Origin: a virus
Length of the DNA stretch: 38,764 bases
Virus record (IMG/VR): IMGVR_UViG_3300031239_000006
Span: 1-38,764 of that record
Direction: 5' to 3' (one strand)
The translations under genes and the position numbers were made by a program. The stretch's first letter is position 1. Every line of letters begins with the position of its first letter. The notes beneath the pieces were generated by a model. It was given only the letters and a program-made list of their open reading frames with translations, was not told the DNA's origin and ran no database searches. Of this stretch, positions 3,518-12,570 are shown piece after piece.

Positions 3518-5680
3518 TCACGCCGCTTGCGCCGGCGCTTGTTTCAGCGTCACCCCGAGATAATGCACGCCGGTTTTTGTGCGGGTTTTTTCGAGCCCGG
3601 CGGCAAAGAGCGCTGCTGAAAACTGCGCTGTGGTCAGCGACGGGTAATCGCGCAATGCGGCCCATGGATCGTAGGCGGCGGCGAGGAGGCTCGCTTTTGT
3701 GCGCGCGCTCTCGTCCATCGTGCATTGTTCGAGCAGCCATTGCGCGACCTGCGCATTTGCGTCTGGCGCGATCATCGTCATCGTAACCAAAGGACCGTCG
3801 CCAAGCGCGCGCATGTGATCGACGTCGGCCGCGATCGCTTCCGCCATCGCCTGGGCCGTGCTGCGCGTGTCCTCATGCGCTTTGGGCGCTGGCTCTGGCG
3901 CAGCGCGCGCGAGAACGTCGGCTATGTCTGGCGGGAGCCATTGCCTGTCTTTCGCCAACGTCGCGGCGCGCTTGGCGAGGTCGGTCTTTTTCAGCTTCGG
4001 CGCATCGCTCGCGGCGGCTTCTCCATCCAGCGCGCGAATCGCTTCGATCGCGGCGTCGCGCGTCGCGGCGAGAAAATATTCGTCGTAGTTGAGCGCGGCG
4101 GCGAGGTCGGCGCGTATACCCGACAGGCGCGCGGCGGTTGCGATCAGGATCAGCGCCGGCTGCATGTCGCTCTTCGACACGTCGATCGCGCGCGCGACCA
4201 GCTCGGCGAAGGCGGTCGTCAAATCGTTGAGCGGCGTCGAGGCGCAGCGCGCGAGCGCTGTTTCGAAGCGCTCGCTCTTGATGCTCTCCAGCAGATCGGA
4301 GCGCGGGCGCTCGCGCCAATAGCCGTTCGGATCGGACAGGCCGATTCCGTCGCGGCCATAAGAGCAGCCGAGCGCGGCGACGGCGAAGGCGAGCGCGAGA
4401 TTGAGATTGCGGCCGGTCACGTCGCGCAGCGCGGCGTTCATCGCCTCGTCCAGCACGCCGCGGAGCGCCTTGCTGGGCTTTTCGGGCGTTGGCGCGGGCG
4501 GCGCTGCGGGGTCGGGTTTGGCGGTCGCGGGAACGGGCGACTCGTCGTCGTCTGCGTCGTCGTCCTGCGCGGCGTCTTCGCTCGGCTGCGCCAGCGGGAC
4601 GGCGCGATCAATAATGATCTTGCCGAGCGAATCGATGTCGACGCGGACGCCGAGCGTTGCGCGCTCCTCGGCAGAAAAGGCGCGCAATAACGCGCGCAAT
4701 TCGATTTCGTCGAGTTCGAAAATAAGAGCGCTTGTTTTGTCGCTAGACAACCCAGGACCGCGCAACGTGCTCGCAATTTCGTCAAAACGTTCGGCGTCGT
4801 CGGCGTAGTCCCCGTCGCGCTCGATCGGGTCCGGATCATCGCCCGTGGTCAACAGCGCCGCGCCCCAGCCCTCGGCCTGCATGATCTTCTCGGCTTCCGC
4901 GAGCAACAGCCTGTCGCAGGTCTGATGCGCGATGCTGGCGTCCAGAAAACGCGCGCCGTCTTCGTCGAAGAGGCTTTCCTCGATCCGCCCGCCGGCGGCG
5001 ATATAAGCGTCGATTCGCGCGGGGTCGGCGCGCAAGAATTTAGCTTCACTGCTGCCGCTCGCCAGCTCGTCCAGGCGCAAGCGGCTGCGGATAAAATAGG
5101 GGCGCTCGATATCGAAATCCGCGGCCTCGTCGAGCAGCGCCTCCTGCGCCGCGATCGTCCCGGTCGTGAACGCTTCGGCGCAGTCGCGGTCGATCTGTCC
5201 CGCGCGCCACAACTCAAGCACGCGCGGCGAGAGACGGCCGAGCGCGAGGCGCTGGCGGACCTGCCTTTCGCTTTGCGCAAAGTCGTGCGCGATCTGCGCC
5301 GTCGTCATGCCGGCGTCGGCGAGCTGGCGGAACGCCTCATATTCGTCGACAGGGTGCAGCGGCTTCTGCGTGATCGACACGGCGAGCGCCGCCTCGCGCG
5401 CTTCGGTCTCCGTGCCGGAAAACACGTCGCAGGTAATCACATTTGGCGCGTCGCCCTGCTCCTCCAGCAGGCGCAGCGCGCGCCAGCGCCGGCCGCCGTC
5501 CAGCACTTCGTAGCCGCTGTCGTCCGGCGATTTGATGACCAGCGGCGGCTGGCGCAGGCCGACCGCGCGGATCGTCGCGGAAAGGGTCGTCACGTCGCTG
5601 GTCGTGTCCTGGCGGGGATTGAGCGGCGACAGACGCGTGATGCGCGACAGCGGGAGATCGATGAGAGTGGCGACGGACAT
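3518..5680 (-). CDS. Large ParB-like protein
   Basis: 720 aa, against about 300 for chromosomal ParB. Residues 5-120 are a ParB N-terminal domain with NPRQ (21-24) and the box II motif GGRRWRAL (62-69), which in the family forms the CTP-binding site. An HTH follows at about 125-175 (MTTAQIAHDFAQSERQVRQRL). Residues ~370-400 are an acidic and proline-rich linker, and the C-terminal ~300 residues are helical and unrecognised. ATG at 5680 has GGAG five bases upstream. No ParA partner is encoded here, so a role in DNA segregation, condensation or transcription is open. Plasmid-type long ParB-like proteins are the closest match. Confidence 0.85.
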   Translation of the reverse strand: MSVATLIDLPLSRITRLSPLNPRQDTTSDVTTLSATIRAVGLRQPPLVIKSPDDSGYEVLDGGRRWRALRLLEEQGDAPNVITCDVFSGTETEAREAALAVSITQKPLHPVDEYEAFRQLADAGMTTAQIAHDFAQSERQVRQRLALGRLSPRVLELWRAGQIDRDCAEAFTTGTIAAQEALLDEAADFDIERPYFIRSRLRLDELASGSSEAKFLRADPARIDAYIAAGGRIEESLFDEDGARFLDASIAHQTCDRLLLAEAEKIMQAEGWGAALLTTGDDPDPIERDGDYADDAERFDEIASTLRGPGLSSDKTSALIFELDEIELRALLRAFSAEERATLGVRVDIDSLGKIIIDRAVPLAQPSEDAAQDDDADDDESPVPATAKPDPAAPPAPTPEKPSKALRGVLDEAMNAALRDVTGRNLNLALAFAVAALGCSYGRDGIGLSDPNGYWRERPRSDLLESIKSERFETALARCASTPLNDLTTAFAELVARAIDVSKSDMQPALILIATAARLSGIRADLAAALNYDEYFLAATRDAAIEAIRALDGEAAASDAPKLKKTDLAKRAATLAKDRQWLPPDIADVLARAAPEPAPKAHEDTRSTAQAMAEAIAADVDHMRALGDGPLVTMTMIAPDANAQVAQWLLEQCTMDESARTKASLLAAAYDPWAALRDYPSLTTAQFSAALFAAGLEKTRTKTGVHYLGVTLKQAPAQAA

Positions 5681-5691
5681 GTTGGCTCCGG

Positions 5692-5994
5692 TCAATGATG
5701 CTCTTGCGGGCGGCGCGCGCCGGGCGGCGCGACGAGATATTCGACGAGCTGGATCAGCCGCGCCGTTCGGTTCTGCGAGATAAACGGCGGGGCCAGCGGC
5801 GAAATGTCGAAAGCGGCGATGCGCGCGATTTCGAGCAAGGCGAGTTCGATGTCGCCGGCGTCGGCCGCGTCGCGCGCGGCCTTGTCGCAGCGATCAAAGA
5901 ACAGCACAGCGTCATTGGCGGCGCGGGCGGTGGCGAGACGACGCTGCTGGATCGCGCGCAGCCGCGGCGGAAAGTCGAGAACGACGCCGGTCAT
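5692..5994 (-). CDS. Hypothetical helical protein
   Basis: 100 aa, alanine- and arginine-rich and mostly helical. It lies between the membrane protein and the ParB-like gene and is coupled to both: its ATG overlaps the upstream stop, and its end lies just past the ParB ribosome site. Function is not recognised. An accessory to either neighbour is possible. Confidence 0.6.
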   Translation of the reverse strand: MTGVVLDFPPRLRAIQQRRLATARAANDAVLFFDRCDKAARDAADAGDIELALLEIARIAAFDISPLAPPFISQNRTARLIQLVEYLVAPPGARRPQEHH

Positions 5995-10123: not shown

Positions 10124-10935
10124 AAGCCCCGTCCGGACATACCGCCGTTCGCGCGCAAAAGCGGCCGCGCGGGCAGCGCGACGCGGCGCTTCCGTGGCAG
10201 ACGCATGAGCTGTTCCCGACGCCGCCCTGGGCGACGCGGGCGCTGTTCGAGAATGTGTTTCCGGCGATGGGCTTGCCGGCCGTCGATCGCTCGCGCGCGA
10301 TATGGGAGCCCTGCGCCGGGCTGCGGCATATGGCGGATGTCTGCGAAGAATATGCGCGGGTCGTCATCGCCTCTGATGTCTGCGTTTACGACGAAACGCT
10401 CGATGTGCGGATGTTCGATTTCGTCGGCGGGCCCGTCCAGCAGGCCCCGGGGATCGATGCGGGGTGGATTATCACCAATCCGCCGTTCGGGCTCGCCGCC
10501 GATATTTTCGAGCGCGCGCGCTGCCTCCTATCGGGGGAGCCGCATGGCGGCATCGCGCTGCTGCTGCGCCTGTCGTGGCTCGAGGGCGCGGATCGTTTCG
10601 AGCGCATTTTCAGCCGCGCGCCGCCGACGGTCTTTGCGCCTTTCGCCGAGCGTGTGCCGATGTGCGAGGGCGGTTATGACCCCGCCGGATCGACGGCGAC
10701 GGCCTATGCGTGGTTCGTCTGGCGGATCGAGGACGGGCTCGTCGCGCGGACGCCGAACAGCCTTCCGTTTTTTCCGACCTTCGTCATTCCGCCCGGCCGG
10801 CGTGAGGCGTTGACCCGCGCCAGCGACCGGCGGCTCGCCGCGCGCCATGTGCCGGGCTGGGTCGCGCCCTCGACGCTCAAGGCGTCCGGCAAGGATCAGG
10901 ACTGGCTCGATCTCGTGGGGGGCAAGCTGTCGTGA
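10120..10935 (+). CDS. DNA methyltransferase-like protein
   Basis: 271 aa, GTG start overlapping the preceding stop. A class I methyltransferase fold is suggested by EPCAG at 64-68 (S-adenosylmethionine site, motif I), ASDV at about 84-87 (motif II) and the motif IV NPPFG at 120-124, which in N6-adenine and related enzymes is the catalytic (N/D)PP(Y/F). It could modify phage DNA against host restriction. A role on RNA or protein is not excluded, because this short type has no target domain I can recognise. Confidence 0.78.
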   Translation: MKAPSGHTAVRAQKRPRGQRDAALPWQTHELFPTPPWATRALFENVFPAMGLPAVDRSRAIWEPCAGLRHMADVCEEYARVVIASDVCVYDETLDVRMFDFVGGPVQQAPGIDAGWIITNPPFGLAADIFERARCLLSGEPHGGIALLLRLSWLEGADRFERIFSRAPPTVFAPFAERVPMCEGGYDPAGSTATAYAWFVWRIEDGLVARTPNSLPFFPTFVIPPGRREALTRASDRRLAARHVPGWVAPSTLKASGKDQDWLDLVGGKLS

Positions 10936-11942
10936 GCATTGGCGCTGTCAATTGGGCGATCGAGAGCGACGATCTGTCGCCGAATGCGAAGCTCGTCCTG
11001 ATCCTGCTGGCGAATTACGCCGATGAATTCGGCGAATCCTATCCGTCGCAGGAAATTCTGGCGCAGCGCACGAAACAGTCGACCGATTCCGTCCAGCGGC
11101 GCATCGCCGATCTGATCGCGGCGGGGCTGCTATTCAAGATCGCGCGTTCGGGCGCGGACGGGCGGCGGATGCACAACCGATACGTGGTTTTGCACGACGA
11201 AAAGGCGCGGCTGCATGCGGTCTCGCTCGGCTGGACGCCGCCGGCGTCTAGCGCGGCCGATCGTTCTTTAAACCGAATGGAAGAGGGCGAAACGGGCCTC
11301 CATGCCGCAGATTGCGGCATGGACCATGCCGCAAATGGAACGGAACCATGCCGCAACCAGAACGAAACCATGCCGCACTGTTGCGGTGTAACACATCAAC
11401 TAACCATCAATAACACTTCCCCCCTACCCCCCAAGGGGGTTTTGGGAGAGGGGGACGCTTCGCGTGGTCAAGGGAAGAAAACGCCGTCCGATCTGGCGAA
11501 CGAGGCGTGGGAGGCTCTCCGGAAGGTCTGGCCGTGGAACGCGACAGAGCTTCCCGAAGCGGCGCGGACCGTTTTCCTGCGATTGACCGACGACGAGCGC
11601 CGGCAGGCGATCGACTGCGCGCCGCGCTACATCGCCGAATGCCGGCGCGGCGACCGCAAGATCGCTCATGCGAAGTCGTGGCTCGCCGGCAAGGGCTGGC
11701 AGGTGTTCGAGGGGCGTTCGGCCGAAAGCGCGGCGGCGCTCGCCGGCGCGGCGTTTTTCGTGCTCCGCGATTCCCGGCAGGCGGCGGCGTGGATGCGCTA
11801 CGAGGCCGCGGTGCATGGCAAGCCGCTGCTGAAATTCATTCCGACGAAGCGCGGCGAGGGCTGTTATCGGCCCTCCGAATGGCCGCCGCCCATTCCCGAA
11901 GAGCTGCGCGGCAAGGGCGATGCGCCCGGCACCGCGGCGTGA
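10932..11942 (+). CDS. Lambda-O-like replication initiator with internal origin
   Basis: 336 aa, GTG start overlapping the previous stop. Residues ~5-95 are a winged-helix domain of the HTH_36/phage replication protein type (LSPNAKLVLILLANYADE, QRTKQSTDSVQRRIADL). Residues ~120-165 are a low-complexity linker whose DNA holds four iterons and an AT-rich patch. The C-terminal half is a separate domain, perhaps for recruiting the helicase. No helicase or loader gene is seen, so the phage would use host DnaB. The layout closely follows lambda O. Confidence 0.82.
   Translation: MSIGAVNWAIESDDLSPNAKLVLILLANYADEFGESYPSQEILAQRTKQSTDSVQRRIADLIAAGLLFKIARSGADGRRMHNRYVVLHDEKARLHAVSLGWTPPASSAADRSLNRMEEGETGLHAADCGMDHAANGTEPCRNQNETMPHCCGVTHQLTINNTSPLPPKGVLGEGDASRGQGKKTPSDLANEAWEALRKVWPWNATELPEAARTVFLRLTDDERRQAIDCAPRYIAECRRGDRKIAHAKSWLAGKGWQVFEGRSAESAAALAGAAFFVLRDSRQAAAWMRYEAAVHGKPLLKFIPTKRGEGCYRPSEWPPPIPEELRGKGDAPGTAA
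11300..11377 (+). repeat. Four iterons: probable replication origin
   Basis: CCATGCCGCA occurs at 11300-11309, 11324-11333, 11346-11355 and 11368-11377. The last three are exactly 22 bases apart (two helix turns) and the first is 24 away. An inverted copy at 11313-11322 makes a 10-bp palindrome with the first repeat. An AT-rich stretch follows at about 11388-11420. Iterons inside the initiator gene followed by AT-rich DNA is the known design of the lambda origin. Confidence 0.82.
11388..11420. other. AT-rich stretch next to the iterons
   Basis: Clearly poorer in GC than the surrounding DNA, with runs such as AACTAACCATCAATAACAC. Immediately downstream of the iterons, it is the likely duplex-unwinding element. 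A C-run/G-run hairpin (about 11420-11440) lies just beyond. Confidence 0.6.
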
Positions 11943-11988
11943 GGCGTGAGGCGTTGGCGTTCGGCGGGAATGGGCGATGGGGCGGGCG

Positions 11989-12570
11989 ATGGCGAAACGC
12001 TGGTATGTGATCGAGACGGTCGATCGTCGCGACGAGGATGCGACGCTGCGGCTGTGTGCGGCGGGGTTCGAGGCGTGGCGGCCGGTCGATGTCGTGCGTT
12101 CGCCGCGCCGGCCGGTTGGGCGGCGGGCGGCGGCGACGCGCGGCGAGCCGCGAATCGAGCGCAAGATTTCGCGCTTTGGGCGATTCGTTTTCCTGCGCGT
12201 CGATCTGAACGCCTGCGTACGCTCGGCGGTGCTGTCGGTTGCGTCGGTGCGGCGGTTTCTGTGTTTTGCCGGGACGGACGATCCGGCGAGCGTGCCGGAC
12301 GATCTGATCGCGTATTACCGCGAGCATGTTCCCGTGCGCTGGCCGTCGCTGGTTGTTTATCAGGTCGGGCAAGTGGTTGAATTTACGGGCGGTCCTTTCG
12401 AGGGCCGCGCGGCGCGGGTGAAGCGGGTTGACGAGCGGGGAATTTTGAGCGTAGAACTCGACGTGTTAGGTCGCGCTACACCAATCGTCGTCGAAGTAGC
12501 GCATGTGCGTCCGTCCGAGTTGTTGAAGGCCAAGCCTCCGCCGGGACGCGCATTCGAAGAAGTCGCCTGA
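11989..12570 (+). CDS. NusG-like transcription factor
   Basis: 193 aa. It begins KRWYVIETV like a NusG N-terminal (NGN) domain, with GRFVFLRVDLN in the middle, and ends with a KOW domain (QVVEFTGGPFEGRAARVKRV, residues ~125-175). NusG-family proteins bind the RNA polymerase clamp and change pausing and termination; specialised members such as RfaH and LoaP antiterminate long operons. Lying between replication genes and a ~25-kb structural operon, it is probably the late antiterminator. ATG at 11989 fits the NusG start best. A strong RNA hairpin lies just downstream. Confidence 0.85.
   Translation: MAKRWYVIETVDRRDEDATLRLCAAGFEAWRPVDVVRSPRRPVGRRAAATRGEPRIERKISRFGRFVFLRVDLNACVRSAVLSVASVRRFLCFAGTDDPASVPDDLIAYYREHVPVRWPSLVVYQVGQVVEFTGGPFEGRAARVKRVDERGILSVELDVLGRATPIVVEVAHVRPSELLKAKPPPGRAFEEVA

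Follow-up and report, generated by a model that had tools for sequence, protein, structure and literature searches.

The window, which is the whole virus contig IMGVR_UViG_3300031239_000006 (38,764 bases), very probably carries a theta-type phage replication origin at positions 11299-11420, within the gene of its own initiator. The anatomy of the iterons, their conservation, and their recurrence at the same place and pitch in related genes are best read in this way. A preliminary description made from the DNA letters had proposed a replication origin inside the initiator gene, and this is now supported by conserved iterons, constraint on silent sites, and coupling between the iterons and the recognition helix of the initiator.

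The initiator gene and its repeat array

The features of the region are listed by position, strand, and nature.

10932-11942, + strand: replication initiator gene, 336 aa, GTG start (open reading frame; HTH_36 and PHROG matches)
10974-11132, + strand: winged-helix (wH) DNA-binding domain, aa 15-67 (Pfam; model pLDDT 90-98)
11250-11459, + strand: disordered linker, aa 107-176, housing the predicted origin (pLDDT <50 in the model)
11299-11323, no strand: perfect palindrome of 25 bases (11-bp arms, 3-nt centre), made of iteron 1 and the inverted copy
11300-11309, + strand: iteron 1, exact CCATGCCGCA, left arm of the palindrome
11313-11322, − strand: inverted CCATGCCGCA copy, right arm of the palindrome
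11324-11333, + strand: iteron 2, exact CCATGCCGCA
11346-11355, + strand: iteron 3, exact CCATGCCGCA
11368-11377, + strand: iteron 4, exact CCATGCCGCA
11382-11389, − strand: inverted half-site TGCGGTGT, beyond the last iteron and kept in relatives
11389-11418, no strand: AT-rich stretch with AACC element, 30% GC, candidate unwinding element
11484-11921, + strand: C-terminal domain, kept in L116, L308, and L309, folded in the model

The initiator protein matched HTH_36 in Pfam (PF13730, E=7e-16), and its PHROG matches were replication initiation protein and O-like families. With its N-terminal HTH_36 domain and PHROG replication-initiation matches, it belongs with the HTH_36 phage initiators (PF13730, phrog_270/1032). 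A structure model gave a confident N-terminal wH domain, whose recognition helix is TKQSTDSVQRRIADL, a disordered linker exactly over the putative origin, and a folded C-terminal domain, which is presumed to contact the helicase or a helicase loader. The HTH_36 match and the low pLDDT of the linker agree with the initial proposal that the repeats lie in the linker-coding part of a winged-helix replication protein. A PDB sequence search with the initiator gave no match to solved structures; the nearest solved folds included the initiator/Rep entries 4pql, 4pt7, and 5kbj and the DnaD structure 2v79, with weak similarity (E about 2e-3 to 1e-2). Used on its own as a query, the window protein had no relative in protein scans of genome_contigs and IMG/VR; the relatives described below came from alignment A1 and from DNA-pattern scans.

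Exact copies of CCATGCCGCA were counted over the whole record. There are five, all within 78 bases (11300-11377), consistent with the four direct copies and one inverted copy originally noticed. The direct copies, on the + strand, follow one another at a pitch of 24, 22, and 22 bases, so the exact 22-base pitch claimed for three copies fits iterons 2-4, the first step being 24. Their start frames are 2, 2, 0, and 1. As all three reading frames are used, the array is not explained by a peptide repeat. In addition, none of 100 synonymous-codon shuffles of the initiator gene reached the observed repeat score. An Rfam search of 10900-12000 returned no RNA family.

The AT-rich stretch that had been reported after the repeats was also borne out: 11389-11418 has 30% GC in a genome of 64% GC, a value as low being found in 0.12% of the record's 30-base windows. 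This stretch holds one exact AACCATCA at 11402-11409, with degenerate neighbours. Just past the AACC element, at 11419-11454, a C-tract followed by G-tracts could fold into a GC-rich hairpin. Similar C/G tracts occur in L308, L116, and L141 and are not general; a conserved hairpin at this position was rejected, since in most homologues the inverted repeats here do not exceed in length those found elsewhere.

The initiator gene and the genes downstream of it lie on the + strand, beyond an S24-type repressor gene on the − strand. Downstream are a NusG-like gene, an HNH gene, and terminase genes, and an integrase gene marks the phage as temperate. The NusG-like protein (11977-12570, + strand), encoded directly after the initiator gene, has PF02357 and KOW matches and falls in a PHROG transcription antiterminator family; it is a phage-encoded factor of the NusG/RfaH type that perhaps controls late transcription.

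Silent-site conservation in full-length homologues

Scanning IMG/VR for CCATGCCGCA pairs near AACC gave L308, whose gene is also that of L311, and L309: two distinct homologues over the full length, with 47% and 46% identity to the window protein, respectively. Both retain the leading inverted pair, the inverted half-site after the last iteron, and the AACC element; the leading pair is also present in L116. Each has three direct iterons 22 bases apart, one unit of which carries a single base change, and two near-exact AACC(N)TCA copies after the last iteron, compared with one exact copy in the window. In the leading palindrome of L308, both arms are altered and the palindrome is preserved. A CCATGCCGCA pair was also seen outside any initiator-like gene in two loci (L306:10263-10340 and L307:6533-6610), in neither of which a wH domain was detected.

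The preliminary description had called for an alignment of homologous initiator genes, and in this alignment the iterons and their spacing persist and silent sites are extra-conserved. Among identical residues, 33 of 40 in the origin segment also had identical codons, compared with 111 of 218 for the folded domains, N- and C-terminal (Fisher P=2e-4); the two comparisons behind these counts have the window sequence in common. The opposite outcome, amino acids retained with repeat spacing lost, was not seen in the homologues. This pattern indicates that DNA rather than protein sequence is conserved in the putative origin segment. Together with the use of all three frames, the silent-site excess also bears out the suggestion that a DNA function overrides the protein sequence here.

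Iterons change with the recognition helix

More distant relatives share the wH domain only. L117 (prophage gene L106), L118, L119, L120, L152, and the plasmid gene L167 have this domain in common with the window (44-52%) and C-termini unrelated to that of the window, and keep the window iteron at 22-23 bases, in L152 in the form CCGTGCCGCA. The expectation that the iterons persist while the linker varies thus held in distant homologues, in which the iteron is kept while the peptide and the whole C-terminal domain change. Conversely, L116 shares both domains with the window (50% and 34%), and its recognition helix reads DVIAKR versus DSVQRR; in place of CCATGCCGCA it carries GGTTAACCCGC units in both orientations. 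Other relatives with different recognition helices likewise have different iterons, at the same place and the same pitch (21-23 bp).

This relationship was quantified with 58 distinct wH domains that have at least three iterons. Iteron similarity rose from 2.0 where recognition-helix identity was below 30% to 10.6 where it was above 80%, and the two measures were correlated (Mantel r=0.44, P=0.0005; 0.31 with the rest of the domain removed). The rest of the wH domain also correlates with iteron similarity (0.46), which leaves direct reading only partly separated from shared ancestry. Taken as sequence comparisons, these results indicate that the iterons follow the DNA-binding domain and are coupled to its recognition helix.

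The layout across the family

The window, whose iterons follow the wH domain within the linker at a pitch of 24, 22, and 22, conforms to the pattern of the HTH_36 family. A simple detector found a chain of at least three units in the linker of 25 of 45 distinct homologues identified by protein, and on visual inspection several more of the 45 had units that were split or inverted. Among the 51 loci of a second set, 39 had at least three units, and 103 of 114 steps measured 21-23 bases. Spacing differs in one clade: L121, L123, and L126 have three direct units spaced 57 and 24-25 bases, not 22, with inverted copies between the direct units in L121, and the direct units of L140, of the same clade, are spaced 33 and 57 bases. 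In L122 and L153 (from 2701 in each), the reading frame ends right after the wH domain, and the iteron array and AACC repeats then stand in non-coding DNA.

A DNA-pattern scan of a bacterial genome collection gave 12 loci. Only L106 of Bradyrhizobium had an off-frame 22/23/22 array in an initiator gene, and the remaining arrays inspected were ordinary in-frame repeats. We found no description in the open-access literature, which is weak evidence, of the extent of this layout in HTH_36 phage initiators.

A common AACC element beside differing iterons

Many homologues carry tandem AACC(N)TCA past the last iteron, with a period of about 11 bases. In the linkers of 45 homologues this motif occurred 53 times, versus 18 in synonymous shuffles, and elsewhere in those genes it occurred once. 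IMG/VR was also scanned, blind to protein, for triplets of AACCATCA, which gave at least 80 loci. Among the matches listed, a wH initiator domain lay within 700 bases upstream of the triplet in 58 of 80; the corresponding counts were 2 of 231 for non-overlapping control regions and 0 of 14 for loci with the reversed motif. In all 51 distinct loci among the matches listed, the domain and the AACC element were on the same strand. The AACC copies occupied more than one frame in 47 of these 51, and the period was mostly 10-13 bases and most often 11; having been chosen by the AACC motif, the 51 loci give no measure of its frequency among all initiators.

The iterons ahead of the element vary from clade to clade, and the AACC element is common to initiators with differing iterons. 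It is absent from lambda-type O, and we found no published description of it in the open-access literature, itself weak evidence. It is conceivable, somewhat short of an even chance, that the AACC/AT-rich element is an unwinding or helicase-loading site. Equally tentatively, AACC(N)TCA could be a constant second module of phage origins that stays while the iterons diverge with the recognition helix of each initiator, and that serves in unwinding or helicase loading. Something shared by all these phages, such as the host helicase machinery or a conserved part of the initiator, might recognise the motif in single- or double-stranded form, a suggestion we make with similar reserve. Bacterial origins contain a DnaA-trio element, and the AACC module can be likened to it, with some hesitation, as a possible phage counterpart.

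Proposed mechanism and alternative explanations

In the mechanism we propose, the wH domain would bind each CCATGCCGCA iteron, and the 22-bp pitch, equal to two helical turns, would place the bound protomers on one face of the DNA. By analogy with pSK41 and lambda, the nucleoprotein complex would then strain and melt the adjoining AT-rich AACC-repeat element. The C-terminal domain would recruit the host replicative helicase, directly or via a loader; none of the window proteins scanned proved to be a separate helicase loader of the P or DnaC kind. Being disordered and sequence-tolerant, the linker that spans the putative origin can carry a DNA signal. The GC-skew check that had been suggested for the region lent the origin reading no support, as the skew does not switch at 11.3 kb, and the single exact copy in the window's AACC element also counts against that reading. 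As the contig is possibly incomplete, a second origin may lie elsewhere.

The repeats could instead be an operator, with no origin involved, and the initiator would use them to regulate either its own transcription or that of the downstream operon. Bound to sites within the gene that encodes it, a DNA-binding protein could act as a roadblock, the palindrome at 11299-11323 is strong, and autoregulation could coexist with origin function. However, the sites lie about 370 bases into the gene and are commonly followed by the AACC/AT-rich element, the repeats change with the recognition helix while place and pitch stay constant, and the arrangement matches that of lambda ori, where origin function is proven (PMC7466680). 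We consider an operator without an origin very unlikely. Slightly less likely still is a partition (centromere-like) site for the ParB-like protein of the phage, even though centromeres typically contain repeats or palindromes and the window does encode a protein with a ParB domain, because the iterons vary with the recognition helix of the very initiator whose gene holds them, such arrays recur across the initiator family on many unrelated contigs, and no CCATGCCGCA copy lies near the ParB gene. The protein in question (3518-5695, − strand) has 725 aa with ParB N-terminal and HTH domains, and its C-terminal stretch shows weak likeness to the ends of phage helicases/primases.

A repetitive peptide in the low-complexity linker might also have given rise to the array as a by-product: the linker is disordered in the model and in-frame CCATGCCGCA arrays do exist in other genes. 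This explanation has almost no probability left: the frame and silent-site data refute it, as copies occupy all three frames in the window and in relatives, no synonymous shuffle reproduced the array, and silent sites are extra-conserved. An origin within the initiator gene remains by far the preferred reading.

Comparison with known systems

Location of an origin within an initiator gene is already known from lambda, pSK41, and repC. The array had been called lambda-type, which holds for the way of working, with the iterons placed centrally in the gene of the initiator, but not for the family, as the window initiator is an HTH_36 protein without a PF04492 match, whereas lambda O matches PF04492 (Phage_rep_O; phrog_277). 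The lambda O protein binds four iterons in the central part of its own gene, beside an AT-rich tract needed for unwinding (PMC7466680). Using record DE3 (L169) as the lambda O comparison sequence, we located these four iterons at nt 348-435 of the gene, compared with 368-446 in the window, with an AT-rich tract following in both. The lambda iteron is an 18-bp dyad at a pitch of 20-24 bp, and that of the window has a 10-bp core at 22-24 bp. Unlike lambda, the window has a leading palindrome and no P-like gene after the initiator. Both proteins match phrog_391, phrog_345, and phrog_678, over partly different regions, and a direct profile comparison (hhalign, A3 versus lambda O) detected no similarity.

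The pSK41-type RepA_N initiators are DnaD-like in both terminal domains. Their N-terminal domain recognises four Rep boxes in the centre of rep, and the linker that these encode is dispensable (PMC5703833). The N-terminal domain, the central sites, and the linker-encoding DNA resemble those of the window, but pSK41 is a plasmid, not a phage, and the window initiator has no RepA_N Pfam match and weak fold similarity. In repABC replicons, oriV lies inside the repC coding sequence in an A+T-rich region, where silent changes abolish replication (PMC3155836). Unlike the window, repC contains no iterons, and the window initiator matched RP-C in Pfam below threshold (E=0.098).

Two further parallels are L106/L052, an HTH_36 initiator from a prophage of Bradyrhizobium sp. 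MOS002, and L167, a gene on a Tardiphaga sp. 709 plasmid, both with CCATGCCGCA at 22-23 bp in the linker, an inverted half, and AACC, but with an unrelated C-terminal domain. On the Tardiphaga plasmid (NZ_CP135530), this HTH initiator with its CCATGCCGCA putative origin lies 3.3 kb from the plasmid's repC; it is possibly a prophage remnant or a second replicon.

Implications

That one AACC(N)TCA element is shared by phages whose iterons are unrelated suggests that they have a step of opening or loading in common. The coupling of iterons to recognition helices supplies dozens of natural protein-DNA pairs from which a recognition code could be learned. Because the layout recurs over many phage initiators with different iterons, the origins of such phages could be located from sequence alone.
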